Shown: piece by piece, positions 3,545-27,216 of the stretch
Layout: every line of letters begins with the position of its first letter
Position numbering within the stretch: position 1 is the stretch's first letter
Assembly (NCBI GenBank): GCA_023954745.1
Contig: JAGSHC010000049.1
Location: 1 to 32,200 of the forward strand
Source: Deltaproteobacteria bacterium
Lineage (GTDB): Bacteria; Myxococcota_A; UBA796; UBA9615
Reading direction: 5' to 3'
Length of the DNA: 32,200 nt
Notes under the pieces: model-generated
Seen by the model: only the letters and a program-made list of their open reading frames with translations
What the model was told of the DNA's origin: nothing
Databases searched by the model: none
Program-made: the position numbers and the translations under genes

Positions 3545-3576
3545 CTGAGAAGCCGCTTGGGAGCGGTCGCTCTCAG
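3545..3576. terminator. Bidirectional hairpin between convergent genes
   Basis: The outer arms CTGAGA (3545-3550) and TCTCAG (3571-3576) and the inner arms CCGCT (3553-3557) and AGCGG (3562-3566) form a two-part stem with a TGGG loop. It fills the 37-base gap between the lipoprotein stop (3535) and the convergent gene stop (3573), overlapping the latter. There is no long T-tract, so bidirectional termination is plausible but unproven. Confidence 0.5.
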
Positions 3577-5192
3577 CGGGCGATGTAGCCGAGGCCTTCG
3601 AGCTGACGGGCGAGGCGCTCGGGGTCTGCCCCGTCCCCAGTGGGCTCGCGCCAGGGGAGCTCGTCGGTCCATCCCACATCGCACCCGAGCAGATCCGTCA
3701 TGGGACGGCCGTCCAGGCGGCGGGGAACTTCGATCCCGAGCAGGGCGAGCGCTGTCGGCGTCAGGTCGAGCAGCTTCTGTAGAGGGAGGTCGTCGCTGGG
3801 CCGGATGCCGGGCCCAGCGCCCACGAGCACGCCGTTCATGCGGTGGTTGCCGGTGTGTCCTACCGCGGCGGGTCCGAACAGCTCCCCCTTCGGGCCGATC
3901 TCGCGCCCAGCGCGCGTCATCCAGCGGAAGTCCTTGGGCACCACGATGAGGTCGGGGGCCTCCTCCAGCATGGGTCCCTCGTAGAGCTCTCCGCCTCGGA
4001 AGACCGCGTCGATGAGGGGCTCGCGGCCGTCCGGTGTCCGCAGGGCGAGGAGCCGCTCGCTGATCGTCGAGAGCAGCGCGTCTGCCTCGGGCCCTGGCTC
4101 GACCTGCCCCACGGGTTCCCGGCCGCGCAGGTTCAGGCTCACCTGGCCGAACAGCCCACGGGCGTAGGCTCTCGTGCCCTCCCAGCGGATGTCGCCGAAG
4201 CGCGGGACGTGCTCGGTGAAGCCTGGATCGCGCCGCCTCAGGGCTGAAGGAAGCCGACCCAAGATGCGCTCCGCGATGGACCCGATGAGGCCACGAGGGG
4301 CCTCGGCGGGACGCCACACGTCGAGCAGGCCCATCTCTTCGAGCACCGAGTTGAGGTAGATGTCGCCTTGCAGGTCTCCGAAGCCGTGGTCGCTGACGAC
4401 GAGCACGGCGGCGTCGGGGCCCGCGGCGTGGATCAGGCGCCCAAGGATGGCGTCCAACTGCACATAGACGTCCTTGATGGCGTCAGCGAACTTCCACCCG
4501 AGCTGGCTTCCGTCGCCGGTGGGGAGGGCTGCTTGTTGCCAGAAGGCGTGCTGCACCCGGTCGGTGGCGACGAACGTGCACACAAACAGGTCGGGTCGCT
4601 CCCTCCGGAGCAGCGCTTCGGCGACGACCCCTCGAGACTCGACCATCTGGTGCAACGCCGCGAGGAACTCGCTCGGATCCGCGTGCTCGTACGAGTTCAC
4701 GTCAATGGCGTACCCCGGGGTCTCGCTCTCGATGAGTCCGGCGAGGTTGCGAGGCCAGCAGGCGTCCTCGAGGGAGTCGGCACCGAGCCCAGGGACGAAG
4801 ACCCCCCGCGACGGCTTGGGTGCGGGGTGGCTCAGGGGCACGTTCATGACCACGGACCGCAGGCCGCAGTCTTCGGCGATGTCCCACAGGGTCGCGCCAT
4901 GGCGCATGGAGGCGTCGGTGTGGGCGACCTCGTAGGTGCCGGGCTTGAGCTGCCCGAAGTCCCAGATCCCATGCCGTCCCGGATTCAGTCCGGTGAAGGC
5001 CGAGGTCCAAGCGGCGGGGCTCAAGGGATGGAGGAGAGAGCGCAGCGGAGACCACGCTCCGCGCTTCGCGAGCTGCGCCAGATGAGGCAGCGTGCCGTCG
5101 GCCATCCAGGGCTTCACCAGCTCGGGCGTCGCGCCGTCCCATCCGATGATGACGAGGGGTCGGGCGGGCCGGCTCGCGTGGGCGGGCCTCAT
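3573..5192 (-). CDS. Alkaline-phosphatase-superfamily phosphodiesterase/phosphotransferase
   Basis: 539 residues, resembling type I phosphodiesterase/nucleotide pyrophosphatase-like proteins. The two-metal active site looks complete. It comprises IIGWDGATP with Asp19, PAAWTSAFTG with Thr63 in the usual nucleophile position, ATDRVQHAFW with Asp211 and His215, VVSDHGFG with Asp268 and His269, and VGHTGNH with His446. It should hydrolyse or transfer a phospho- or phosphodiester group. The substrate cannot be told from sequence, although in polysaccharide loci such enzymes are often thought to act on glycan or lipid-linked intermediates. There is no signal peptide or membrane segment. The ATG start overlaps the stop of the upstream sulfatase-like gene by 4 bases (ATGA), so the two should be translated together. 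Confidence 0.85.
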   Translation of the reverse strand: MRPAHASRPARPLVIIGWDGATPELVKPWMADGTLPHLAQLAKRGAWSPLRSLLHPLSPAAWTSAFTGLNPGRHGIWDFGQLKPGTYEVAHTDASMRHGATLWDIAEDCGLRSVVMNVPLSHPAPKPSRGVFVPGLGADSLEDACWPRNLAGLIESETPGYAIDVNSYEHADPSEFLAALHQMVESRGVVAEALLRRERPDLFVCTFVATDRVQHAFWQQAALPTGDGSQLGWKFADAIKDVYVQLDAILGRLIHAAGPDAAVLVVSDHGFGDLQGDIYLNSVLEEMGLLDVWRPAEAPRGLIGSIAERILGRLPSALRRRDPGFTEHVPRFGDIRWEGTRAYARGLFGQVSLNLRGREPVGQVEPGPEADALLSTISERLLALRTPDGREPLIDAVFRGGELYEGPMLEEAPDLIVVPKDFRWMTRAGREIGPKGELFGPAAVGHTGNHRMNGVLVGAGPGIRPSDDLPLQKLLDLTPTALALLGIEVPRRLDGRPMTDLLGCDVGWTDELPWREPTGDGADPERLARQLEGLGYIAR

Positions 5193-8309: not shown

Positions 8310-8345
8310 GGGGGGCTCTTGCCACAACACGTGGAAGAGCCCCCC
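8310..8345 (+). terminator. Strong perfect hairpin after the LamG lipoprotein gene
   Basis: GGGGGGCTCTT (8310-8320) pairs perfectly with AAGAGCCCCCC (8335-8345). A further CCAC/GTGG pairing (8322-8325 with 8331-8334) lies inside, leaving an AACAC loop. It starts 17 bases after the stop codon. No T-tract follows, so it may act as a weak intrinsic terminator or as an mRNA 3' stabiliser. It argues against the upstream TTG (8319) and GTG (8331) as starts of the next gene, since both lie within it. Confidence 0.6.
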
Positions 8346-8396
8346 GCTTCACCCCCCTCGCAGCAGCCGCCCCCCGCCGCCGTCTACGATGGCGCC

Positions 8397-9452
8397 GTGC
8401 TCGGCGTCCCTGCCACCGAGGCTCGTCTCCCGGACGACGCCGCGCTGCCCTCTCTGCCCTCGCGCCTCCAGGTGGAGGTGACGAACCGCTGTCACCTGGG
8501 CTGTGAGTCCTGCGCGCGGCACCACTGGGAGCCCGCGGTGAACCCCGTAGGTGACATCGGGCCCGCCACCCTCGACCAGCTCCAGCCGCTCCTCGAGGCC
8601 GCTACCGAGGTGACCCTCGGGGGCTATGGCGACCCCACCGAGGCCCCCGACGCCCTCGTGGAGACCGTGCGCCGCGCCAAGGCCGCTGGGTCCTCGGTGA
8701 GACTCATCACCGGCGGCGCGAAGCTCAATGCCCCGCTGCTCGATCGCCTCGCGGACGCGGGGCTCGACCGCCTCGTGTTGTCCATGGATGGGGCGACCGA
8801 CGCCACGTTGCGCCAGCTTCGCGGAGTCTCGCTGCGCGCCTATCTCGGCTGGATCCGCGCGGCCCGGGCCCTGGCGGACGCCCGAGGGGGTGTCAGGCCC
8901 CTGGTTCAGCTCAACGTGGTGGCCCAGTGGGCCAACATCGCCGAGCTTCCGGCTCTGGTCGATCTCTGCGCGGACGAAGGCGTGGCTGGACTGCACGTGT
9001 TCCACCTCAAGGCCTACACGCCCGACACCTTCGATCGATGCCTGCTCACCGAGCCGGAGAAGGCACGGCCGTACTTCGTCGAGGCCCGCCGCCGCGCCAT
9101 GTGCCGAGGCGTCTTCCTGGCTCTGCCGACCCTCGACCCCTCGGTGCAGGTCTGCACCCAGCCCTTCGAACACCTCTTCGTGCGCCACGACGGCTCGGTG
9201 CGAGGGTGTTGCTCTGGCCTCTTCGAGCCAGCGGTTCACGGCCTCCTCGCGGGAGCGCTGCCGGGGACTCCCGCGGCCGCTCGCATGCCCGACGGCACCC
9301 CTGAGGAGCTCTGGCGCGCACCGATCCTCCAGCAGTACCGCGCCGCCGCCCGCGCGGGGGACGACGTCCGGCTGCCTACCCCGTGCCGCACCTGCGCGTT
9401 CCGGCTGCCCACCCTGGCCGCTCACCGCCGCCCACTCCGGGTGGTCTCGTGA
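8397..9452 (+). CDS. Radical SAM enzyme with SPASM-like C-terminal cysteines
   Basis: 351 residues from the GTG at 8397. Possible earlier starts (TTG 8319, GTG 8331) fall inside the terminator-like hairpin, and the region between them is a low-complexity Pro-rich stretch. The [4Fe-4S]/SAM motif is VTNRCHLGCESC, with Cys32, Cys36 and Cys39. LGGYGDPTEAP matches the GGE-like SAM-binding strand, and a TIM-barrel series follows (RLITGG, RLVLSMDGAT). C-terminal cysteines 253, 271/272, 330 and 333 (VCTQPFEHLFVRHDGSVRGCC, PCRTC) resemble a SPASM or twitch cluster. Such enzymes modify peptides, sugars or small molecules by radical chemistry; the substrate is not evident. Its stop overlaps the ABC permease start by 4 bases, placing it at the head of a polysaccharide export operon. 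Confidence 0.83.
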   Translation: MLGVPATEARLPDDAALPSLPSRLQVEVTNRCHLGCESCARHHWEPAVNPVGDIGPATLDQLQPLLEAATEVTLGGYGDPTEAPDALVETVRRAKAAGSSVRLITGGAKLNAPLLDRLADAGLDRLVLSMDGATDATLRQLRGVSLRAYLGWIRAARALADARGGVRPLVQLNVVAQWANIAELPALVDLCADEGVAGLHVFHLKAYTPDTFDRCLLTEPEKARPYFVEARRRAMCRGVFLALPTLDPSVQVCTQPFEHLFVRHDGSVRGCCSGLFEPAVHGLLAGALPGTPAAARMPDGTPEELWRAPILQQYRAAARAGDDVRLPTPCRTCAFRLPTLAAHRRPLRVVS

Positions 9453-10276
9453 GCGCGGTCGCTACTCCGCTCCCAGATGCTCCTGCGGCGCCGGCTGGCT
9501 GGCGCCGGCCCATGCGTCTGCTGTCCCACCTGGTCTGGTGGGACATGGTCTCGCTGTACTTCGGCAGCTGGGCGGGGTTGCTCTGGAACTTCGTCCTTCC
9601 GGCCGTCGTGATCCTCGCGTACCTGGCGATCTTCGAGCTGACACCCGGCTTTCGCTTCGGCGGGGGCCGCGAGGTCGTGGGCGGGTTCGGCATCAACCTC
9701 GTCGCCGGCTTGATCCCGTGGATGCTCTTTCAGGAGGGCGTCTCCCGGGCTTCGTCGGCTTTCATCGACAATCGGCACGTGCTCTCGCAGATCCCACTGC
9801 CCGCTCCGCTCTTCCCCCTCGCCAACGTCGGCTCCGCCCTTGTCCGGCACGTCGTGGCTCTGGGCCTCTTCGCCGCGATTCTCATCTGGTCGGGCCTGAC
9901 GCCCACCAAGCTCTGGCTGATGGTTCCTGTCCTCGCGGTCCCTCTGCTCCTGCTCACCGCGGGATGTGCCCTCGTGTTCGCTTGCCTCACGGTCCTCAGC
10001 CGCGATGTGGCTCCCACCGTGGGCGTCGCGATGCTGCCGCTCTTCTTCGGCACCCCGATCATCTACCCCACCTACATGGTCCCCGAGACGCTTCGGATGC
10101 TCATGGACCTGAACCCGCTGTCGGGAGTGGTGGTGGCCTACCGGGACGTGCTGATCACCGGCCGCATGCCCATGCCTGGCCCGGTGCTCTACTCCTTCGG
10201 AGTGGGCGCGCTGCTGGTTCTCCTCGGGGTGGTCCTGGTGCGCCGCATTGGCCCCGAGCTGGCGGAGCGGCTGTAG
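9449..10276 (+). CDS. wzm: ABC-2 type polysaccharide export permease (Wzm/TagG type)
   Basis: 275 residues from the GTG at 9449, which overlaps the preceding stop (GTGA). Six membrane segments can be placed at about 45-63, 82-98, 125-148, 158-182, 190-205 and 248-266. The motifs SRDVAP (184-189), TPIIYP (202-207) and LNPLSGVVVAYRDVL (221-235) are typical of O-antigen and teichoic-acid exporters. It should form the inner-membrane channel for an undecaprenol-linked glycan together with the ATPase encoded directly downstream. The symbol reflects family resemblance; the actual glycan is unknown. Confidence 0.88.
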   Translation: MSAVATPLPDAPAAPAGWRRPMRLLSHLVWWDMVSLYFGSWAGLLWNFVLPAVVILAYLAIFELTPGFRFGGGREVVGGFGINLVAGLIPWMLFQEGVSRASSAFIDNRHVLSQIPLPAPLFPLANVGSALVRHVVALGLFAAILIWSGLTPTKLWLMVPVLAVPLLLLTAGCALVFACLTVLSRDVAPTVGVAMLPLFFGTPIIYPTYMVPETLRMLMDLNPLSGVVVAYRDVLITGRMPMPGPVLYSFGVGALLVLLGVVLVRRIGPELAERL

Positions 10277-11506
10277 GTGTCGGCCGTCGTCGTACGCAAC
10301 GTCAGCAAGCGGTTTGCGGTCCGCCGGGACCCGCATGGCGGGGTGCGCAAGCGGGGCTTCTTCTCGAGCCCGCCGGTCGAGGACTTCTGGGCATTGCGGG
10401 ACATCGACTTCACCGTGCCTCCCGGAGGTGCCCTGGGCATCGTCGGCGCCAACGGCTCCGGCAAGTCCACGCTGCTTCAGATCGTCGCCGGAGTCCTCGC
10501 TCCGACGACCGGCCGCGTGGAAGCGACGGGGCGCGTCATCAGCATCCTCAACCCCACGGCGGGCTTTCACCCCGATCTGTCAGGCCGCGCCAACGTGCGC
10601 ATGCTCGGCTCCCTCTTTGGCCTCGACAGCAAGACCATCGAGGGCCGCATGGACGCGATCATCTCCTTCTCGGGCCTCGACGACTACATCGACCAGGCCC
10701 TGCGCACCTATTCGGCGGGGATGATGATTCGCCTCGGCTTCGCGACCGCCTCGCACCTCTCGCCGGACGTCCTCGTCGTCGATGAGGTGCTCAGCGCGGG
10801 AGACCTTGCTTTCCAACGGCGCTCTGTCGGCATGGCGCGCCAGCTCCGTGAGCAGGGCTGCACCGTGCTCGTGTCCACCCACGCATTGGGGGACCTGGCC
10901 ACTCTGTGCGACCGACTCATGCTGCTCGAGCAGGGCGCGGTGCAGGCTGAGGGCTCTGCCGACGAGGTGGTCGCCGCGTACATGCAGCGCATCGACGCCG
11001 CCGGCGGCAAGATCGCGGCGGGCCACCCGATGATTGGCTCCGCGCGACCCACGAGCCCCACAAAGGACGTCGAGCTCACCTCCATCGTCGTCAACGGCCA
11101 GGCCAGTCCCGACCACATCACGGTGCACACCGGAGAGCCGCTCCACGTGGAACTTCACTACGAGGCCCGCCAACCCGTCGACGACGCTGTGTTCCGCGTG
11201 CAGCTCTTCCGCAACGACGGGCTCTTCGTGCACGGGCAGAACACCGTGCGCGCGGGCTTGGACCTGGGCGTCCTCCAGGGGAGCGGTGTGGTCCGATTGG
11301 ACTACCCAGCCTTCGGGCTCCTGGGCGGCGACTACTACCTCAGCGTGGGCGTCTGGCCCGACGAATACCGCAGCTACACCACCGGCGAGGCCTACGATCA
11401 CCGACCGTCCGTGGGCATCGTGCACATGGTCGACCAGCGCTCCGACGGAGCCGGGGTCGCCGGCTTTCCTGCCCGCTGGGCCCACGACACTGGAGCCAAC
11501 GCTTGA
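10277..11506 (+). CDS. wzt: ABC polysaccharide exporter ATPase with Wzt-type C-terminal domain
   Basis: 409 residues. The GTG start directly abuts the permease stop. The nucleotide-binding domain (about 1-245) has Walker A GANGSGKST (57-65, Lys63), the signature YSAGM (145-149), Walker B VLVVDE with Asp169 and Glu170, and switch His202 in STHAL. The FAVRRDPHGGVRKRGFF insertion near the N-terminus resembles that of polysaccharide export ATPases. A C-terminal beta-sandwich (about 265-400, HVELHYEARQPVDDAVFRVQ) corresponds to the Wzt carbohydrate-binding domain. In Wzt proteins such a domain recognises the modified non-reducing end of a finished chain before export. This suggests a chain-termination step in this pathway. 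The stop overlaps the next gene (TTGA). Confidence 0.9.
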   Translation: MSAVVVRNVSKRFAVRRDPHGGVRKRGFFSSPPVEDFWALRDIDFTVPPGGALGIVGANGSGKSTLLQIVAGVLAPTTGRVEATGRVISILNPTAGFHPDLSGRANVRMLGSLFGLDSKTIEGRMDAIISFSGLDDYIDQALRTYSAGMMIRLGFATASHLSPDVLVVDEVLSAGDLAFQRRSVGMARQLREQGCTVLVSTHALGDLATLCDRLMLLEQGAVQAEGSADEVVAAYMQRIDAAGGKIAAGHPMIGSARPTSPTKDVELTSIVVNGQASPDHITVHTGEPLHVELHYEARQPVDDAVFRVQLFRNDGLFVHGQNTVRAGLDLGVLQGSGVVRLDYPAFGLLGGDYYLSVGVWPDEYRSYTTGEAYDHRPSVGIVHMVDQRSDGAGVAGFPARWAHDTGANA

Positions 11507-13728
11507 CTCGTCGCCGTATTGCCGTCGTCAGCTCGTGCTGTCCGCCCCTCCCTGGGTACCCCGTGACCGGGGGAGGGCTGCGTACCGAGCAGCTCATCGC
11601 CACGTTGCGCACCGCGAAGCACTCGGTGATTCCCGTCATCGAGGCGGCGGCGGTGCCGAGCGAGGCAGCCGGGGACTGGCGCACCTTTGGAGAGGGCGAG
11701 CTCGCCGCGGTGCTGCGAGACATCAAGCCACAGATCATCGTGCTCGAGCAGTGGGCGCTGGCTTCGCGGCTCGGAGATCCTGCCGACGGCGGCGCGCCCG
11801 ACGTCCCCCTCGTCATCGACCTGCACGGCTCGCTCTTGCTCGAGAACGTCTATCGGCGCGGCACCACCGACCTGACGCTGGACGGCAAGACGAAGCTGGA
11901 GGCATTGCGACGCGCGGACCTTCTCGTGACGCCGGCGCCGGCGCAGATTCATCACTTCGCTTCCTGGGCGACCCTCGCGGGCTTCGATGCTCGGGAGCTG
12001 CCGCTGGCGTTGCTTCCTCTCGCGACCACGCGGGTCGCCAAGGCGCGTTCGTCGAAGAAGCCGGCCTTGAAGATGGTCTACGGCGGTGCGCGCTGGCCGT
12101 GGATCGACTCGCTGCTCTGGTTGGAGACGGCGGCAGGCGTCGCCCAGTCCCACAAGGGCGCTCGCCTCGACGTCTTCACCTACGATCCACCGCGGCATGG
12201 ACTGCCATTCGAAGAGGATCTGGGGACGTGGCCCGACGTGGACGCGGCCCTGAAAGGTCGGACGCGGAAGGGAGTCAAGCTGCACGGGAAGACCGAGCAC
12301 GCGGACTTCGTGGACTTCCTCGAGTCCGAGGCCACGGTCGCGCTGGACCTGTGGGAGCCAAATCCAGAGCGCATGCTGGCGTCCACGACGCGGACGGTGG
12401 AGTTCCTCGCCGCGGGCTTGCCGGTGATCACCACGCGGGGCGCCTCCTGGTCTGAAGAGCTCGTCCAGGCGGGGGCCGGCTGGACGGTGGCGTCGGGTGA
12501 CCACGCGGAACTGACGGCCCTCCTCGAGGACCTCGTCGCGCACCCCGAGCGCATCGCCGAGGCCTCGCGGGCGGCACTCGCGCTTGCGTCGTCCAGAGCG
12601 GACCTCGCGTCGTCCGGTGCAGCGCTGCTCGCGTTCGCTGACACCCCCTCTCGCCCCCCGCGAGCGCCGCGCTCGGTGGTGGAGGCCATCGTGCATGTGC
12701 GCCAGACCCACCTCGACGAGACGCTTCGTTCCCTCGAGGGGGCCCATCGGGACGAGCACGCAACCATCGTCGCGTCGCACAAGGCGGAGACTGCGGAGCT
12801 GCGGGACCGCCACGGTGAAGAGGTCGAGCAGCTGCGGGCCGCTCATCAGGCGGAGGTTGCCGAGCTCCGTGCGGACGCGGACGCGCGCATGGAGAAGGCC
12901 ACGAAGCGTCACGACGAGCAGAGCGAGACGCTGCTGGCCCACCAGCAGGAGGTCTTGGAGCGGGCGGACGCTCAGCATCGCGAGGTCGCGGCGCGGCAAG
13001 AGGCGTTGATGGAGGAGGCGACCGCATCCCACCGGAGCGAGGTGACGCGCATCGGCGCGGAGCGGCGGGCCGAGATGGAGGAGGTCCGTGAGCGTCACCA
13101 GGAGGAGCTCCGAGCGCTTCGATCCAGCGCGCAGGAAGAGGTCGCTGCGCTGCAGGACAGGCTCGATGCTGCGCTGGCCGAGGCGTCATCGTTGGCGGAG
13201 GCCACGCGCCTGCGGACCGAGGAGCTCGCCCTGAAACAGAAGCTCGAGCTGGAGGAGCTGCGACTGCGCCTCGAGGGACTCGTGGCCGAGCGCCAGTCCG
13301 AGTTGGACGGCGTGAGAGAGACCCTCGCCGAGCGCGACCAGGCCCTGCGGGTGATGACGGAGGCCCGCGACGAGCTGAAGGGCCGCTGGACCTCGGACCG
13401 AGCCCAGGACAAGGAGGCGCGCACGAAGCTCGAGGTGGAACTGCGCGCGGAGATGACCGCGCGAGAGCAGCAACAGCGGACCCAGGCAGCGGCGGAGCTG
13501 GAGGCCCTGCGGGCCGAACTCACCGGTCAGCTCGAGGCCATGGGGGCCCGCAAGGTCGTGCGTCTGGCGGACAGCGTGCAGGGCGCCCTGCGCGGGGAGG
13601 GAGAAGGCCCCAGGGTTCCTGGAGCGGGGGTGGCGGCGCGGATCCTTGGGGAGACGGGGCGCATCGTTCCTGCGGCTCGCCTGGCGAAGCTGTGGACGGA
13701 GCATGCCCTGGACCGGGAGCACGACTAG
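11503..13728 (+). CDS. GT4-like glycosyltransferase with long C-terminal coiled coil
   Basis: 741 residues from a TTG at 11503 that overlaps the ATPase stop. Residues 1-385 look like a GT-B glycosyltransferase: IAVVSSCCPPLPGYPVTGGGLRTEQLI at the N-terminus, VIDLHGSLLLE near 105-115, and ERMLASTTRTVEFLAAGLPVITTRG before the C-terminal subdomain. Residues about 390-685 are an almost uninterrupted charged heptad coiled coil rich in E, A, R, L and Q, of the form LRDRHGEEVEQLRAAHQAEV. A short basic tail (686-741) follows. In the ABC-dependent O9a system, WbdD uses a coiled coil as a ruler for chain length. The same arrangement next to a Wzt with a C-terminal domain suggests a similar role here, which is inference. 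It could instead simply tether or oligomerise the enzyme. Confidence 0.82.
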   Translation: MTRRRIAVVSSCCPPLPGYPVTGGGLRTEQLIATLRTAKHSVIPVIEAAAVPSEAAGDWRTFGEGELAAVLRDIKPQIIVLEQWALASRLGDPADGGAPDVPLVIDLHGSLLLENVYRRGTTDLTLDGKTKLEALRRADLLVTPAPAQIHHFASWATLAGFDARELPLALLPLATTRVAKARSSKKPALKMVYGGARWPWIDSLLWLETAAGVAQSHKGARLDVFTYDPPRHGLPFEEDLGTWPDVDAALKGRTRKGVKLHGKTEHADFVDFLESEATVALDLWEPNPERMLASTTRTVEFLAAGLPVITTRGASWSEELVQAGAGWTVASGDHAELTALLEDLVAHPERIAEASRAALALASSRADLASSGAALLAFADTPSRPPRAPRSVVEAIVHVRQTHLDETLRSLEGAHRDEHATIVASHKAETAELRDRHGEEVEQLRAAHQAEVAELRADADARMEKATKRHDEQSETLLAHQQEVLERADAQHREVAARQEALMEEATASHRSEVTRIGAERRAEMEEVRERHQEELRALRSSAQEEVAALQDRLDAALAEASSLAEATRLRTEELALKQKLELEELRLRLEGLVAERQSELDGVRETLAERDQALRVMTEARDELKGRWTSDRAQDKEARTKLEVELRAEMTAREQQQRTQAAAELEALRAELTGQLEAMGARKVVRLADSVQGALRGEGEGPRVPGAGVAARILGETGRIVPAARLAKLWTEHALDREHD

Positions 13729-15492: not shown

Positions 15493-15521
15493 TTGGATCC
15501 TGGCTCAAACGCGAATAAATC
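15493..15521 (+). promoter_or_regulatory. Possible sigma-70-like promoter for the 992-residue lipoprotein
   Basis: TTGGAT (15493-15498), a 17-base spacer, then TAAATC (15516-15521), about 52 bases before the ATG. Each hexamer matches the consensus at only three of six positions, so this is a weak call supported mainly by spacing and local AT content. Confidence 0.25.
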
Positions 15522-15573
15522 AGGGTCCCCCGCCGCTCGGAGTGGGAGCTTGCTTGACCTTCCTGGAGCCGAA

Positions 15574-18552
15574 ATGACCCGCACCGTTCTCTCTACCCTG
15601 CCCGCCGCGCTCGCCGCCGTGCTCATCGCTGGATGTGCACAGCCCGACGCGCTCCCGGCGCTCCCCGACAACATCGACATTCGCCAGGCGGCCATCACCA
15701 TCGCCGTGCCCGGCGACTACGGCACGATCGGCGCTGCGCTGGCTGCCGCCGTCCCCGGCGACGTCGTCGCGGTGGACGCGGGCAACTACGCTGAGGACCT
15801 GACGCTCCCCGGTGGAGTCATCCTGCAGGGCGCGGGCATCGACCAGACCATCATCGAAGGCGAGCTGACCGTCTCTGGTGGCCAGGCCGGCATCGTCTCC
15901 CTCAACCTCGTGGGCCCGGGCGCTTCTGCCAACACCATCGGGCTGCTCGTCGGCCCCGGTGACGGTGTCGAGGTCGTCTCCGCGCGCTTCAGCAACTGGT
16001 GGACGGCCATCCAGCTGAACACGGGTTCCTCCCCCGCGGGCGGGATCCCCGAGGTGCGGCGCCTGACGCTGCAGAACAACGGATACGGCGTGGTCGTCGA
16101 GTCCGGCGACGTGGACCTGAACAACAACTACTTCGCCTACAACATCCGCTCGGGCGCATACGCCTGGGACAACGCCTCGATGCAGGCCATCAACAACACC
16201 GCCTTCGGCAACAGCTTCGGCGGCAACACGGTGGACCGCGACGCGGCCTTCTCGCTGGGCACCAACGGCAACTCCGTTGTGCGCAACAACATCGTCACCA
16301 GCAACCTGTTCGGGCTGCAGTGCGACAGCTGCACGGCGGTGATGGACTTCAACAACGTGTGGGGCAACACGACGAACTACTCGGGCGACGCGTCCGCGAG
16401 CTCGGACGACCTCAACGTCGACCCCATCTTCATGGACCTCGCCACCGGCAACCTGCGCCTGCAGGAGACGTCTCCGATGATCGACGCGGGCAGCACCGAC
16501 GGTGCCCCGCCCGTCGACTGGGACGGCTTGGCTCGCCCCTCTGGCGCGGGCATCGACATCGGCGCCGACGAGTGGAGCCTCTCCTCCGTCACCCTCGTCA
16601 TCAACGAGGTCATGGCCAACCCCGGCGTCGAGAGCACCGGCGAGTACATCGAGCTCTTCAACGTGGGTCAGGACCCGGTCGACCTCGCGGGTCTCAAGAT
16701 CAACGACGGTGACCAGCAGGACACCCTGGAGGCCTACAACAGCGGCTCCACGATCGTGCCCCCCGGTGGCTACGCGGTGGTCGTCGACCCCGACTACGCC
16801 GGGCAGTACACCATCCCCGGTGACGCGACCCTCGTGACCACGGGCAACGCCAACCTCGGCAACGGCCTGAGCACGAACGACCCGATCCAGCTCGTCGAGA
16901 GCAACGGCTACGTCGTCATCAGCGAGTGGACCATCCCCTTCAACCCGGGCGACAGCATCTCGGTGGAGCGGGTGGACGTGACCGCCGGCAACGTGACCAG
17001 CAACTGGGTCGCCTCTCCCTGCGCGGCGGACAACAGCATTGGCGCCGTGAACTGCAGCGCCGGCGTCATCGCCCCGAACGACCCCTCCACGCTCATCATC
17101 ACCGAGATCCTCGCCAACGCGCTGGACGAGACCACCGGTGAGTTCGTGGAGATCTTCAACACCGGCACCGAGGACGTGGACGCCAACGGCCTCGTCATCG
17201 ACGACGGCGACAGCACGGACGCACTCATCGCGTACAACGCTGGCGACACGATCATCCCCGCCGGTGCCTACGCGGTCATCGTCGACCCCAGCTACGTCGG
17301 GCAGTACATCATCCCGGCGGACGCGGTCTTGCTGACCACGGGCGACGCGACCATCGGTAACGGCCTCGCCAACGCGACCGACCCGGTGAGCCTGTTCGAC
17401 ACCGACGGCGCCACCCTCATCGACTCGTACACCTTCCCCTCGGATCCGGGCGACGGCACCTCCATCGAGAAGGTCGACTACACGCTCGGCGACATCGCCA
17501 GCAACTGGGCCGCCAGCACCTGCCCCATCGAGCACTCCGGTGGGCGCCTCTCCTGCAACGCGGGCGGCGTCGGTGACGGCATCGTGATCAACGAGATCAT
17601 GAACAACCCGCTCAACGAGCAGACCGGCGAGTTCGTCGAGGTGAAGAACATCGGCCCCGGCTCCGTGGACCTCGCGGGTCTCTGGATCACCGACGGCGAC
17701 CAGCTCGACCAGCTCGTGGCCTACAACGGCTCGGCGACGGTCATCGCGCCGGACGAGTACGCGCTCATCGTCGACGCGAACTTCAACTCCGACTACGCCA
17801 TCCCGGCGGGCATCGCGGTGCTGACCACCGGTGACAACCACATCGGCAACGGCATCAGCACGACGGACCCCGTCCACCTGCTCGAGTTCGACGGTGCGTC
17901 CACCATCGACACCTGGCTCGCGCCCTTCAACCCGGGCAACGGCTTCAGCGTCGAGAAGGTGAACGCCCTGAGCGGTGACGTCGCCGCCAACTGGGAGGCC
18001 GCCACCACCTGCGCGGCGGGCTCCTCGCCGGGCCTCGACAACTGCAACAGCTACACGCCCATCGCGGCTGGCACGACCGACCTCGTCATCACCGAGGTGA
18101 TGGCCAACCCGCTGGTGGAGAGCACCGGCGAGTTCGTCGAGGTCTACAACGACGGCACGACCGCCATCGACCTCTGGGGCCTCATCATCTACGACGGGGA
18201 CGCCTGGGACTTCCTGCGGACGTTCGACGGTGGCACCACCATCGTGCAGCCCGGTGAGTACGCGGTCATCCTCGACCAGGACTACGCCGGCGAGTACACC
18301 ATCCCCGCCGGAGTGACGACGGTGACGGTGGACGACGGCAGCATCGGTTCGGGCCTCGCGGCCACCAACGACCAGGTGTTCCTGTACGAGGCGGATGGCT
18401 ACTCGGTCATCGACACGTACGGCTTCCCCTTCAACCCGGGGAACGGCACCAGCGCGGACCGCGTCGACCTGACGTCTCCGGACGCCGCGGCTACCTGGCA
18501 GGCCAGCACCTGCGCGGCCGGCAACTCCATCGGAGCTGCCAGCTGCCCCTGA
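15574..18552 (+). CDS. Giant lipoprotein: beta-helix plus four tandem lamin-tail domains
   Basis: 992 residues from the ATG at 15574, chosen because GGAG (15565-15568) lies 5 bases upstream and the N-terminus then is a lipoprotein signal ending VLIAGC (Cys21). Longer versions would precede the signal with low-complexity sequence. Residues about 45-325 form a right-handed parallel beta-helix (YGTIGAALAAAVPGDVVAVDAG, GVILQGAGIDQTIIEG, repeated NNxxxxN turns, ending IDIGADEW), as in pectate-lyase-like and NosD-type proteins. Four lamin-tail domains follow, starting near residues 338, 504, 668 and 836. Each has (I/V)xE(V/I)(M/L)xNxxxxxTGE(F/Y)(V/I)E, followed by a VDLxGLxIxDGD-type strand. There is no poly-Asp linker. 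It is probably a surface adhesin or glycan-binding scaffold; catalytic residues were not identified. Confidence 0.87.
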   Translation: MTRTVLSTLPAALAAVLIAGCAQPDALPALPDNIDIRQAAITIAVPGDYGTIGAALAAAVPGDVVAVDAGNYAEDLTLPGGVILQGAGIDQTIIEGELTVSGGQAGIVSLNLVGPGASANTIGLLVGPGDGVEVVSARFSNWWTAIQLNTGSSPAGGIPEVRRLTLQNNGYGVVVESGDVDLNNNYFAYNIRSGAYAWDNASMQAINNTAFGNSFGGNTVDRDAAFSLGTNGNSVVRNNIVTSNLFGLQCDSCTAVMDFNNVWGNTTNYSGDASASSDDLNVDPIFMDLATGNLRLQETSPMIDAGSTDGAPPVDWDGLARPSGAGIDIGADEWSLSSVTLVINEVMANPGVESTGEYIELFNVGQDPVDLAGLKINDGDQQDTLEAYNSGSTIVPPGGYAVVVDPDYAGQYTIPGDATLVTTGNANLGNGLSTNDPIQLVESNGYVVISEWTIPFNPGDSISVERVDVTAGNVTSNWVASPCAADNSIGAVNCSAGVIAPNDPSTLIITEILANALDETTGEFVEIFNTGTEDVDANGLVIDDGDSTDALIAYNAGDTIIPAGAYAVIVDPSYVGQYIIPADAVLLTTGDATIGNGLANATDPVSLFDTDGATLIDSYTFPSDPGDGTSIEKVDYTLGDIASNWAASTCPIEHSGGRLSCNAGGVGDGIVINEIMNNPLNEQTGEFVEVKNIGPGSVDLAGLWITDGDQLDQLVAYNGSATVIAPDEYALIVDANFNSDYAIPAGIAVLTTGDNHIGNGISTTDPVHLLEFDGASTIDTWLAPFNPGNGFSVEKVNALSGDVAANWEAATTCAAGSSPGLDNCNSYTPIAAGTTDLVITEVMANPLVESTGEFVEVYNDGTTAIDLWGLIIYDGDAWDFLRTFDGGTTIVQPGEYAVILDQDYAGEYTIPAGVTTVTVDDGSIGSGLAATNDQVFLYEADGYSVIDTYGFPFNPGNGTSADRVDLTSPDAAATWQASTCAAGNSIGAASCP

Positions 18553-22783: not shown

Positions 22784-25357
22784 ATGCGCGTCCTGATGGT
22801 CCACCCCCACGACATCTACGATCCGCTGGAGCCGTGGACCATTCGGATCACGTCGCTGGCGCGCTGTCTCACAGAGCGCGGCCACGAGGTGAAGCTCGCC
22901 TACCACATCGCGCGGCCCGATCGGACGCCCGCTGAACTCCAGCACCGGCAGGAGTTTCCCTTCGAAGTCATCCCCTTCGTCCGCCACATGGGCCTGGGCC
23001 TGCGGAAGGCCAAGGAGCTGACCGCCCTGGGGCGCTGGGCCGACGTGGTGCACGTGCAGAAGGCCCTGGCTCACGCCGCGTTGCCGTCGGCGGTCGCCGC
23101 GTTCTGGAACCGGGTTCCGCTCCACTACGACTGGGACGACTGGGAAGCGCAGATCTACGCAGACAGCGTGGGTGTCGACCGGCACCACCGCCGCATCGAC
23201 CGCTTCGAGCGTGCTCTCCCCCGCATCGCCGACACCATCAGCGTCGCGAGCAAGGCCCTCGAGGAGCAGGCTCTGGCCCTCGGAGTGGCGCCCGCGGACA
23301 TCTTCGACGCGCCCGTGGGCGCGGATCTCTCCCGCTTCGATCGCGGCGGTGATGGCGAGTCCCTGCGCGAGGAGTTGGAGCTCGACGGCCCCATCGCCCT
23401 GTATCTGGGGCAATTGGCTGGGGCGCACGCCGCGCCGCTCTTCCTCGAGGCAGCGGCCCTTGTCCTGCAGCAGCGCCCCGACGCCGGCTTCCTGGTGGTG
23501 GGGGGAGGCCGTACGCTCGCCGCCTTGAAGGAGACGGCCGAGCGGCTCGGTGTCGCCCATCGGACTCGCTTCACGGGCGCGGTTCCGCACACGGAGGTCC
23601 CCCGGTACATGGACGTCGCCGACGTCGCGGTGGCCACTCTTCCCGACACGCCCCAGGCGCGCACGAAGTCACCGCTCAAGGTGGTGGAGTACATGGCGGC
23701 GGGCCGGGCCATCGTCGCTTCCGCCGTGGGGGAGGCCGTGCGCTTCCTCGGAGACGCCGGTCGCCTCGTGGAGCCAGGCAGCGCCAGCGCCCTCGCCGAT
23801 GCGGTGGCTGAGCTGCTGGGCGACCCCTACACGTCGAGCGAGCTCGGTGTCGCCGCCCGGGAGCGTCTACGCAGCAACTTCACCTGGATGCACACCGCCG
23901 CCAAGCTCGAAGAGGCGTACGTGCGAGCGCGCATCAAGCGGGGCCTGCTCCCCAGCGGTCGATCCCATAGCCGGGGCCTGGGTCCCGAGGGCACCGCCCC
24001 CCGCCCCAACGGCGCCCTGGGGGCCACCTTTGACGTCTCACCCAACGGTGTCCCGCAGACCCATCGAACACGCGTCCCCCAGAGCGGAATCGGCGCACCT
24101 CCTCCTCCTCCGGTCGACGAGGCCGCGGCCAGTTCGCTCCTGAAGGCGCCCGTCGCCCGGGTGCGCGAGTCGATGCGCGGACGCCTCGACCTCGCAGGCG
24201 TGATGCAGGGGGAGCTCGCCTACACCGGGCCGTGGACCATCCAGCTCGACGTCACGAACCGCTGCAACAACGACTGCATCGCCTGTTGGTTGCACAGCCC
24301 ACTCCTCGCAAAGACCGGTCCCAACGCCAAGGACCGTAGAGCCCAGCTTCGCTTCGATCTGGTCCGGCAGATGCTCGATGACGCCGCGGCGATGGGCACG
24401 CGAGACATCTACATGGCGGGGGGCGGCGATCCCATCGTCTATCCCTGGCTCAAGGAGACCGTGGAGCACGCCAAGTCCCACGGGATGACCGTCGCCATCA
24501 ACACGAACTTCGCCCTGGGTGACGAGGCGTGGTGCGACTGGGCGTGCGACGTCGGTCTCGACGACATGACGATCAGCGTGTGGGCGGGGACCGAGCGTGG
24601 TTTCGACGCCACCCACCCCAACAAGAAGCCAGCGGACTTCCACAAGCTCAAGCGCCTGCTGACCTACCTCAACAAGCGCAAGCGTGAGGTGGGACAGGGC
24701 CCGACGATCAAGCTCTACCAGGTGGTGAGCAACCTCAACTGGACCGAGTTCGACGCGATGTACGACCTGGTCGAGGAGACGGGCTCGGACGCCGTCGAGT
24801 ACACCGTGGTCGACACGGTGCCCGGGCACACCGACGTCCTGCTCTTCGACGACGACGCCCGCAAAGAACTCATCGTGCGCAGCGAGGCTCTTCAAGCGCG
24901 CCTGGAGGCCCGGGGTGAGAGCCATCGCCTCTTCGGCTTCGACCATTGGCTTCGGCGCATCAAGACCGACGGGGTCACCGAGGGGCTCGGGGACGCCTCC
25001 ATCGTGCACACCTTCCCGTGCACGATCGGCTGGACCTTCTTGCGCGTCATGCCCGACGGCAAAGTCACGAGCTGCTTGAAGTCCCACCGCATCCCCATCG
25101 GGAACCTCAATGACGAGCGACTCTCGGTCATGTGGAACAACGAGCGGCAGCGCTCCTTCCGGCGCATGACAAACGTGCGCGAGAAGAGCGATCCGTGGTT
25201 CTCGAACATCGGCAACGACCCCGACGTCGCCTGCGGGTGCGAGAAGAGCTGCGATGACCTGGGTCGCAACCTCGCCACCTGGAGGCGTCTGGAGCAGCTC
25301 AGCGGTCCGGAGAAGCTGCTCGTGCGCCACGCCAGCAAGGTCCTCACCGCGCTGTGA
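22784..25357 (+). CDS. Fusion of GT4 glycosyltransferase with radical SAM/SPASM enzyme
   Basis: 857 residues. Residues 1-385 are a GT-B fold GT4 glycosyltransferase: HPHDIYDPLEPWTIRITSLARCLTERGHEV at the N-terminus, IALYLGQLAGAH near 205-216, and TKSPLKVVEYMAAGRAIVASAVGE before the C-terminal helices. A Pro-rich linker (about 385-450; APPPPPPVDEA) leads to a radical SAM domain with VTNRCNNDCIAC (Cys494, Cys498, Cys501), the AGGGDP strand and a TIM-barrel series. A SPASM-like domain follows, with Cys746, Cys764, Cys817, Cys819 and Cys823 (FPCTIGWTFLRVMPDGKVTSC, CGCEKSC). One polypeptide would thus carry both glycosyl transfer and radical chemistry, perhaps on the same sugar or peptide. No frameshift or internal stop separates the halves. 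The stop overlaps the kinase start (GTGA). Confidence 0.88.
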   Translation: MRVLMVHPHDIYDPLEPWTIRITSLARCLTERGHEVKLAYHIARPDRTPAELQHRQEFPFEVIPFVRHMGLGLRKAKELTALGRWADVVHVQKALAHAALPSAVAAFWNRVPLHYDWDDWEAQIYADSVGVDRHHRRIDRFERALPRIADTISVASKALEEQALALGVAPADIFDAPVGADLSRFDRGGDGESLREELELDGPIALYLGQLAGAHAAPLFLEAAALVLQQRPDAGFLVVGGGRTLAALKETAERLGVAHRTRFTGAVPHTEVPRYMDVADVAVATLPDTPQARTKSPLKVVEYMAAGRAIVASAVGEAVRFLGDAGRLVEPGSASALADAVAELLGDPYTSSELGVAARERLRSNFTWMHTAAKLEEAYVRARIKRGLLPSGRSHSRGLGPEGTAPRPNGALGATFDVSPNGVPQTHRTRVPQSGIGAPPPPPVDEAAASSLLKAPVARVRESMRGRLDLAGVMQGELAYTGPWTIQLDVTNRCNNDCIACWLHSPLLAKTGPNAKDRRAQLRFDLVRQMLDDAAAMGTRDIYMAGGGDPIVYPWLKETVEHAKSHGMTVAINTNFALGDEAWCDWACDVGLDDMTISVWAGTERGFDATHPNKKPADFHKLKRLLTYLNKRKREVGQGPTIKLYQVVSNLNWTEFDAMYDLVEETGSDAVEYTVVDTVPGHTDVLLFDDDARKELIVRSEALQARLEARGESHRLFGFDHWLRRIKTDGVTEGLGDASIVHTFPCTIGWTFLRVMPDGKVTSCLKSHRIPIGNLNDERLSVMWNNERQRSFRRMTNVREKSDPWFSNIGNDPDVACGCEKSCDDLGRNLATWRRLEQLSGPEKLLVRHASKVLTAL

Positions 25358-27216
25358 CCGACCCCTTTCAGCTCCAGGACCCGTTTCGGGCCGTGGACGA
25401 CGAGACCGGTCGCGCCGAGCTACGCGAGCGGGCGGACAACTACCGCAAGCTGGGCCGAAGCGAGGAGGTCCTGGACATCTATTGGCGGCTGTCGGACTGG
25501 CAGCGCATGGCGGACTACCTCATGGAGCTGGAGCGTCCGGTCGAGGCTGGGACTGCCTGGCTGAGGCTGCTCCCGTTCCTTCCGGTGCGAGCCGACACGC
25601 TGACCCGGGTTGAGGCCATGGCGGCCCGGGAGGCGGCGCGGTGCTATGCGAGCGGGGGGATGCACCGCGCAGGCGCTGGCCTGCTCCTCAACCTGGGCGA
25701 CCGAGACGCGGCCATCGAGGTCCTCCGGGCCGGCGACCTGACCGACGAGATCGCAAGCGTCGAGGCGCACGAGAGCCTGGCTGGGAATCCCTGGCCTGGC
25801 GGCATGGTCTCGTCCAGAACTCCGGCCGGGGCGCGGGATGGCGCCGAGACATCCGAGCACCGCGTGGTTCGCCTCGGCTCCGAGGCAGCCGGCCCGGACC
25901 CCGCGGCCGACGACGGGTCCGGCTCCGCCCTCGACGCTCTGGTCCAGGTCCCCGTAGGCGACCCGCACTACCTCGATGTCGCGGACCTCGTGGCACGACT
26001 CGCGTTTCAACACGGCCTGATGTCGGCGAAGGTCGCGCTGTTCCTCGAGCCGCTCTTGTCGGGAGAGGGCCTCGATGGACGGCAGCCCGACGCCGACACC
26101 GTCTATAGACTCGGCCGCCTGCACGAGCGCATCGGAATCACCGAGAAGGCAACTGTGGCCTATGCGCACGCCCTCGCCATCAATCCCACGCACCGCGCGT
26201 CGGCCGTGCGCTCCGCGCGGCTGAAGAACCCCCAAGGGGGCGCTGAGGACGCGGTCGATGCCTTCTCCAAGAGCATGGAGATGGGGGCCTCGGAACACGA
26301 CCGGGAGCAGCTTCGAGCGCGGGTGGTCACCACCACCACGGAGTTCAACCTCGGTCCGCTGGTGCCGGGCTCGGAGGTCGCCGGGCGGTTCTTGTTGGAG
26401 GACCCCATCGGAGAGGGCGGATGCGGCGTCGTCTTTTCGGCGCAAGACCACCAGACCGGCAAGCGTGTCGCCCTCAAGATCTTGCGTTCGGGGGCCGGAG
26501 AGTTGCGGGCAGTCCAGCGGTTCCAACGCGAGATCGAGATCAGCAAGGGGCTGCGCCACCCCAACGTCGTGGAGACCATGGACAGCGGCGAGTGGCGGGA
26601 CCTCCACTGGATCTCCATGGAGCGGCTGGACGGCATCGACCTGGGGGTCCTGCTTCGCCGCATTGGCCGCCCGCTGCCCGTCGGTCCGTCGATCCGGGTC
26701 CTGCGCCAGACTCTCGAGGGCCTCTCTCACGCGCACGACAGCGGCGTCATCCACCGCGACATCAAGCCCTCGAACATCTTCGTGCTGAGGAAGACCCACA
26801 ACATCAAGCTGTTGGACTTCGGACTCGCCTTCATCACCAATGCCACGCGCTTCACTCGCGCTGGCACCACGGTGGGCAGCCCCCGCTACATGGCTCCTGA
26901 GCGGCTGCGGGGCGACGTCGACTTCGGTCCCTGGAGCGACCTGTATGCGCTGGGCGTGGTGGTCCACCGGATGCTGACGGCGACGATGCCGTTCAAGGAG
27001 AAGGACCTCGTCCAGCTGCTGGCGGAGATCAGGTCCGTCGACCCTCCGCCGCCGTCGACCCTGAACTCCAGCGTGCCCCCGGAGCTCGACGCCATGGTCG
27101 CGAAGCTGCTTTCGAAGGAACCACTGGAGCGCTACCGCGCCGCCGGGGAGGTCCTCGCCGACCTCGACCCCCTGGAGCACCGCCTCGCCGCGGAGCGAGG
27201 AACGAAGAGGAACTGA
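25354..27216 (+). CDS. Ser/Thr protein kinase with N-terminal TPR-like region
   Basis: 620 residues from the GTG at 25354, overlapping the preceding stop. Residues about 15-320 are helical and TPR-like (ADNYRKLGRSEEVLDIYWRLSDW, AREAARCYASGGMHRAGAGLLLNLGDRDAAIEVL, YRLGRLHERIGITEKATVAYAHALAINP), with a low-complexity spacer near 150-195. The C-terminal kinase domain (about 345-610) is complete: IGEGGCGVV loop (352-360), VALKIL with Lys375, HRDIKPSN with Asp469, DFG with Asp488, and MAPER. There is no membrane segment, so it is probably cytoplasmic. Catalytic-last order is unlike the usual bacterial PknB type with kinase first and a membrane anchor. Translational coupling to the glycosyltransferase-radical SAM fusion suggests it controls, or responds to, that pathway. 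Confidence 0.9.
   Translation: MTDPFQLQDPFRAVDDETGRAELRERADNYRKLGRSEEVLDIYWRLSDWQRMADYLMELERPVEAGTAWLRLLPFLPVRADTLTRVEAMAAREAARCYASGGMHRAGAGLLLNLGDRDAAIEVLRAGDLTDEIASVEAHESLAGNPWPGGMVSSRTPAGARDGAETSEHRVVRLGSEAAGPDPAADDGSGSALDALVQVPVGDPHYLDVADLVARLAFQHGLMSAKVALFLEPLLSGEGLDGRQPDADTVYRLGRLHERIGITEKATVAYAHALAINPTHRASAVRSARLKNPQGGAEDAVDAFSKSMEMGASEHDREQLRARVVTTTTEFNLGPLVPGSEVAGRFLLEDPIGEGGCGVVFSAQDHQTGKRVALKILRSGAGELRAVQRFQREIEISKGLRHPNVVETMDSGEWRDLHWISMERLDGIDLGVLLRRIGRPLPVGPSIRVLRQTLEGLSHAHDSGVIHRDIKPSNIFVLRKTHNIKLLDFGLAFITNATRFTRAGTTVGSPRYMAPERLRGDVDFGPWSDLYALGVVVHRMLTATMPFKEKDLVQLLAEIRSVDPPPPSTLNSSVPPELDAMVAKLLSKEPLERYRAAGEVLADLDPLEHRLAAERGTKRN

Follow-up and report, generated by a model that had tools for sequence, protein, structure and literature searches.

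Domain layout of the fused gene

The window, which here designates the whole 32,200 nt stretch of DNA analyzed, contains an ORF that runs uninterrupted from an ATG start at 22784 to 25357 and codes for 857 aa, exactly as the first-pass annotation of this DNA had it. A glycosyltransferase and a radical SAM (rSAM) enzyme are joined in its product, with the following features:

22784..25357, + strand: fused gene, GT4 glycosyltransferase-linker-radical SAM/twitch, 857 aa (ORF, Pfam, fusion alignment, codon-position GC)
22784..23938, + strand: GT4 (GT-B) half, residues 1–385 (Pfam PF13439/PF13692, Foldseek, dN/dS)
23939..24118, + strand: proline-rich, variable, disordered linker, about residues 386–445 (pLDDT; unalignable among fusions)
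24119..25354, + strand: radical SAM core and C-terminal twitch-like auxiliary-cluster domain, residues 446–857 (Pfam, AF2, BtrN profile match)
24263..24286, + strand: CxxxCxxC motif for the SAM-binding [4Fe-4S] cluster, Cys494/498/501 (invariant in 14 fusions and 42 rSAM rows)
25019..25252, + strand: four auxiliary-cluster cysteines, 746, 764, 819 and 823 (C-x12-G-x4-C ... C-x3-C; invariant, the first two matching the spacing in BtrN)

Pfam assigns the GT4 domains to residues 22–184 and 203–347, Radical_SAM (PF04055) to residues 490–662 and SPASM to residues 746–796. The annotated union of both halves in one polypeptide thus stands, with Pfam domains of each in a single continuous frame: codon-position GC shows the coding frame to be unbroken from the GT half to the rSAM half, the signature being flattened only within the linker. 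This method is able to detect a wrong frame, and it revealed paralogous rSAM ORFs that are falsely extended at the N-terminus; L097 and L099 (883–943 aa) and L098 (truncated, 621 aa) were discarded as further fusions because their N-terminal parts are out of the coding frame. An AlphaFold model of the full-length protein, built with 70 related sequences, reached a pLDDT of 90.5 and a pTM of 0.54, leaving the halves without a defined relative placement, and the disordered linker imposes no fixed geometry; the rSAM half modeled alone (AF2) reached 95.5 and 0.92, respectively. The proline-rich linker noted at first pass is real, with a pLDDT below 50 at residues 392–439, and its sequence is neither alignable nor conserved in an alignment of 14 fusions (see below).

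Both halves are members of known families. The GT half qualifies as GT4 by its GT-B fold and its sequence similarity to that family, and its best Foldseek matches were MshA, PimB' and BshA, which likewise have a GT-B fold and GT4 Pfam domains but no rSAM domain. E302 and the surrounding motif KSPLKxxEYxA are retained by 12 of the 14 fusions (the window lineage and 11 others). The EX7E motif of retaining GT-B enzymes, typical of GT4 although not defining, is incomplete: unlike in MshA, PimB' and BshA, its first Glu, eight residues before E302, is replaced, being Thr or Cys in most fusions. Two fused copies (L020:4904–7342 and L078:3814–6252) combine a normal rSAM half with a GT half that has diverged strongly (branch 2.3) and carries Q instead of E302. 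These replacements would fit a GT half that is no longer catalytic and serves the radical enzyme for glycan binding or targeting; nevertheless, the retention of KSPLKxxEYxA in the remaining fusions and a dN/dS of 0.13 for this half make that very unlikely. An intact-looking fusion copy, L016, shares a metagenome-assembled genome (MAG) with L020.

The C-terminal half belongs to the radical SAM superfamily by PF04055 above its cutoff, the invariant C494/498/501 and its fold. Only seven cysteines, 494, 498, 501, 746, 764, 819 and 823, are common to all 14 fusions and the 42 aligned rSAM domains; the annotated set also included Cys817, which occurs in 6 fusions and is missing from the other 8. Twitch domains are truncated SPASM domains with up to four cysteines for a single auxiliary cluster. 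SPASM domains, with two auxiliary clusters, are defined by the seven-Cys motif CX9-15GX4C-gap-CX2CX5CX3C-gap-C (PMC6231123). This motif is not present in the 14-fusion alignment, which has only four conserved C-terminal cysteines (C746, C764, C819 and C823, also invariant in the 42 rSAM rows). Since Cys817 is not conserved and the other four are invariant, the auxiliary site is, as judged from the alignment, of the one-cluster twitch type, and the SPASM label initially given to this half has to be replaced.

In profile searches, the best PDB match of the rSAM half was BtrN (2-deoxy-scyllo-inosamine dehydrogenase, a twitch radical SAM enzyme, PDB 4M7T; E 8.6e-11), with PqqE, BlsE, DesII and MoaA also among the matches, whereas structure comparison with Foldseek slightly favored SkfB, SuiB and anSME; therefore, the fold does not decide the substrate. 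None of the NCBIfam models for named rSAM families (TIGR04317, NF033640 and others) reached its curated cutoff, the best scoring 65.9 bits against a cutoff of 380. The CxxxCxxC core and a four-Cys auxiliary site are common to BtrN and the fusion, with equal C-x12-G-x4-C spacing in the profile alignment, although the last Cys pair is C-x2-C in BtrN and C-x3-C in the fusion and overall identity with the rSAM half is low (14%, Foldseek). Moreover, BtrN, with crystal chains of about 270 residues, is short and stand-alone, lacks a GT domain and acts on a free aminocyclitol; dehydrogenases of its type carry out the two-electron oxidation of a cyclitol or sugar alcohol. DesII and BlsE, radical SAM enzymes acting on nucleotide sugars in deamination and decarboxylation reactions, resemble the fusion in their rSAM core and sugar chemistry but are also stand-alone, with no GT fusion. 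The auxiliary cluster of BtrN is fully ligated by four cysteines and is the proposed electron acceptor in aminocyclitol oxidation (PMC9012708). The SkfB paper warns that in this subfamily function is not predicted by sequence similarity (PMC6231123).

Recurrence and origin of the fusion

A scan of genome contigs retrieved 80 loci, 13 of which hold other full-length fusions with the same domain order (L009, L010, L013–L022 and L078), giving 14 with that from the window. They come from MAGs labeled as Myxococcota/Deltaproteobacteria, Pseudomonadota, Wallbacteria, Cloacimonadota, Planctomycetota or unclassified, labels taken over from the MAG records, some of which may be incorrect. Within the window's own phylum the fused gene is rare, occurring in 3 of the 141 sampled genomes, its own included. 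The fusions group together in the trees of the GT half and of the rSAM half, and a single origin was not rejected for either (AU p 0.636 and 0.682, respectively), so these phylogenies are compatible with one origin for both halves. In comparison with a same-genus copy, dN/dS was 0.13 for the GT half and 0.18 for the rSAM half, values that indicate purifying selection on both.

The fusion is neither an assembly artifact nor a sequencing error, given the 13 further fusions from independent MAGs in several phyla, the purifying selection on each half and the continuous frame; it is natural, as the first-pass annotation had supposed. That annotation would have yielded to relatives with halves always separate and unlinked; instead, there are 14 fusions, and separate orthologs are linked in all 32 loci that have them. 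One apparent case of separate genes in a single MAG (L011/L012) is a copy split by a contig break near the linker. No relatives were found in the viral contigs and plasmids searched, and PADLOC matches to viperin reflect generic rSAM similarity.

A second fusion of GT4 and rSAM/SPASM domains, of 941 aa, was found in the genome of the window on another contig (C422; L104:8955–11777). It has the same order of halves, GT4 followed by rSAM/SPASM, but it probably arose independently, judging from an identity of only 23% to the window protein over the aligned part and from its rSAM half fitting a different local rSAM model. The true start of this ORF is probably downstream of its residue 1, and another rSAM/SPASM gene overlaps it. 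Glycosyltransferases of another family are also involved, with GT2 plus rSAM/SPASM in a protein from L040 and B12-dependent rSAM (B12-rSAM) plus GT2 in L019 and L097.

Gene linkage and glycan-export clusters

When the GT and rSAM orthologs are separate genes they are on the same strand in 32 of 32 loci, separated by a median of 1.65 kb, and in 31 of these the rSAM gene lies upstream. In the fusion the order is the opposite, GT before rSAM, and it therefore did not derive from simple read-through of genes so ordered. The distances of both orthologs are correlated (Mantel rho 0.59, p 0.0005), shared genome ancestry contributing to this value. Since the fusion is natural and recurrent, and the separate halves are linked and co-diverge, these comparisons suggest that both halves likely function in one pathway. 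The action of both on the same carrier, as originally postulated, is less certain in view of the pTM of 0.54 and of the L020/L078 subfamily, which keeps the rSAM half but has a strongly diverged GT half.

The neighborhood of the fusion in the window includes:

3573..5192, - strand: type I phosphodiesterase/nucleotide pyrophosphatase family protein (Pfam; also near fusions in L009, L019, L020 and L078)
8319..9452, + strand: separate radical SAM/SPASM gene that opens the exporter operon (Pfam; in L009, L015, L021 and L022 homologs lie upstream of the fusion)
9383..10276, + strand: Wzm-like ABC-2 membrane subunit (Pfam PF01061)
10277..11506, + strand: Wzt-like ATPase with a Wzt_C glycan-recognition domain (Pfam PF00005, PF14524)
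11503..13728, + strand: GTx, GT-B-like glycosyltransferase whose long tail is charged and coiled-coil-like (in L009 its homolog precedes the fusion by 3 bp)

The genes in 8319–13728 form one apparent operon, which lies upstream of the fused gene at a distance of at least 9 kb. In L009, the closest complete relative (67% identical by tblastn), the operon is rSAM-Wzm-Wzt-GTx-fusion, with a 3-bp gap before the fused gene; exporter, Wzt_C and glycosyltransferases thus share an operon with the fusion, resembling ABC-transporter-dependent (Wzm/Wzt) pathways for O-antigen or capsule. Co-located ABC-2 and ATPase genes, as expected for such a pathway, occur in the window (9383–11506) and in the adjacent operon in L009, and Wzm or Wzt is encoded in 23 of the 55 loci that span 12 kb or more. 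These 55 loci also include twitch rSAM (50 loci), B12-rSAM (41), GT2 (30) and carbamoyltransferase (13) genes, and a second rSAM/SPASM gene directly follows the fusion in L013, L015, L019, L021 and L022. To our knowledge, no known Wzm/Wzt pathway uses several rSAM or B12-rSAM enzymes or GT-rSAM fusions. There are 3.3 rSAM domains per 20 kb in fused and 4.1 in unfused loci, vs. 0.22 in the genome of the window (77 in 7.13 Mb), figures to be read with the loci being partly chosen via rSAM motifs and the background coming from one genome only. Unfused loci retrieved by a match to the GT half only and flanked by 5 kb or more on both sides (n=9) contain 2.5 rSAM domains per 20 kb, and 3 of the 9 have no rSAM gene.

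The exporter, the other glycosyltransferases and the carbamoyltransferase fit the glycan carrier that had been offered as one of two options for the substrate. Their presence, in particular that of Wzm/Wzt with Wzt_C and several glycosyltransferases per cluster, speaks for polysaccharide export and against a substrate such as the head group of a membrane lipid or some other small molecule. This alternative is unlikely, even though the GT half resembles MshA (inositol phosphate) and PimA and PimB' (phosphatidylinositol mannosides) and B12-rSAM and rSAM enzymes modify lipids in other pathways.

The second option, a ribosomal peptide that the enzyme would both modify and glycosylate, was dropped. 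RiPP maturases are numerous among SPASM/twitch enzymes, and the fold of the rSAM half resembles SkfB and SuiB; however, none of the small ORFs up to 1.5 kb from the fusions is independently conserved, and those that recur across lineages are shadows, on the minus strand, of a conserved gene downstream. Likewise, the models show no domain of the size of a RiPP recognition element (RRE) before the rSAM core, where only about 35 helical residues exist, too few for an RRE, and no NCBIfam RiPP-maturase model reached its cutoff. With neither peptide gene nor RRE, such an activity is highly improbable. C23, a small conserved ORF from Omnitrophota considered as a precursor peptide, resembles a membrane protein.

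Proposed role in surface glycan synthesis

We propose, with a probability of about 0.5, that the fusion is a bifunctional enzyme of a Wzm/Wzt-exported surface glycan, which adds a sugar and radically modifies the same or a neighboring sugar. From its family and neighbors, the GT4 half would use a nucleotide donor to add a sugar to the growing lipid-linked glycan on the cytoplasmic face. The rSAM half would reductively cleave SAM at the [4Fe-4S] cluster of Cys494/498/501, and the 5'-deoxyadenosyl radical would abstract a hydrogen from a carbon of the added sugar or of the adjacent one; the single auxiliary cluster (C746/C764/C819/C823) would most likely receive an electron from the substrate radical, in the way suggested for BtrN. 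The product would be a keto sugar, or an epimerized or deoxygenated sugar, and the flexible linker may hold both steps on one glycan. The profile matches to BtrN, as the best, and to the sugar enzymes BlsE and DesII favor this role, whereas the peptide and protein enzymes SkfB, SuiB and anSME among the structure matches, the warning on sequence similarity in the SkfB paper, the 9 kb that separate the exporter operon from the fusion in the window, the Thr/Cys in place of the first Glu of EX7E and the pTM of 0.54 count against it.

Both halves could instead serve the same glycan pathway on different molecules, the rSAM half making or modifying a nucleotide sugar or other precursor and the fusion only setting stoichiometry or location. 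This arrangement, rather unlikely in our estimation, agrees with BtrN, DesII and BlsE having small sugar-like molecules as substrates, with the lack of fixed geometry of the disordered linker, and with the rSAM domain of unfused loci being often joined to B12-rSAM (22 ORFs with architecture B12+RStw) and not to a GT. Conversely, the co-divergence of GT and rSAM, as well as the repeated GT-rSAM fusions of differing GT and rSAM types, suggest a tighter functional coupling.

More tentatively, the fusion may be the sign of a widespread and so far undescribed class of surface-glycan clusters rich in rSAM genes, present in Omnitrophota, Cloacimonadota, Wallbacteria, Myxococcota, DPANN archaea and other groups. 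In such clusters, the covalent coupling of glycosyltransferases to twitch- and B12-type rSAM enzymes would let radicals edit the polymer while it is being built. A limited search of open-licence papers found no description of the fusion architecture or of such clusters. Known radical SAM sugar enzymes, such as BtrN, DesII and BlsE, are mostly from antibiotic or nucleoside biosynthesis; the tie of a GT-rSAM fusion to glycan export, if true, would extend radical chemistry to the cell-surface polysaccharides of bacteria and archaea, in lineages many of which are known mainly from MAGs. Fused or neighboring halves in surface-sugar clusters of many phyla point to an uncharacterized route for radically modified cell-surface sugars, for which the fusion offers a single expressible protein to test both activities and the linked unfused loci a comparative set for pathway inference.

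Proteins with several rSAM domains were also seen. These include proteins from Omnitrophota, as well as single proteins of about 1400–2200 aa, some with B12-dependent domains (L072:3150–8936, L016:13649–20224, L032, L051 and L070). A 1902-aa ORF (L034:5543–11251) combines a Wzt-like ABC ATPase with B12-rSAM and twitch rSAM domains, and in an rSAM-dense stretch on contig C42 of the window's genome two proteins (L100:6191–8620 and 11558–13594) have two radical SAM-like domains each.

GTx and its relatives (window 11503–13728, L009:7466–9997 and L016:7173–9758) are found beside Wzm/Wzt in some loci and vary widely in tail length, with proteins of 488–861 aa; the tail is possibly a chain-length ruler. 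Additionally, the window encodes large proteins (803–3535 and 15493–18552) with Lamin Tail Domain repeats and extracellular-type domains (a metal-binding MopE motif, PPC and beta helix). A gene for a TPR and Ser/Thr kinase protein (25354–27216), whose GTG start overlaps the stop codon of the fusion by 4 bases, follows the fused gene in the window but not in L009.
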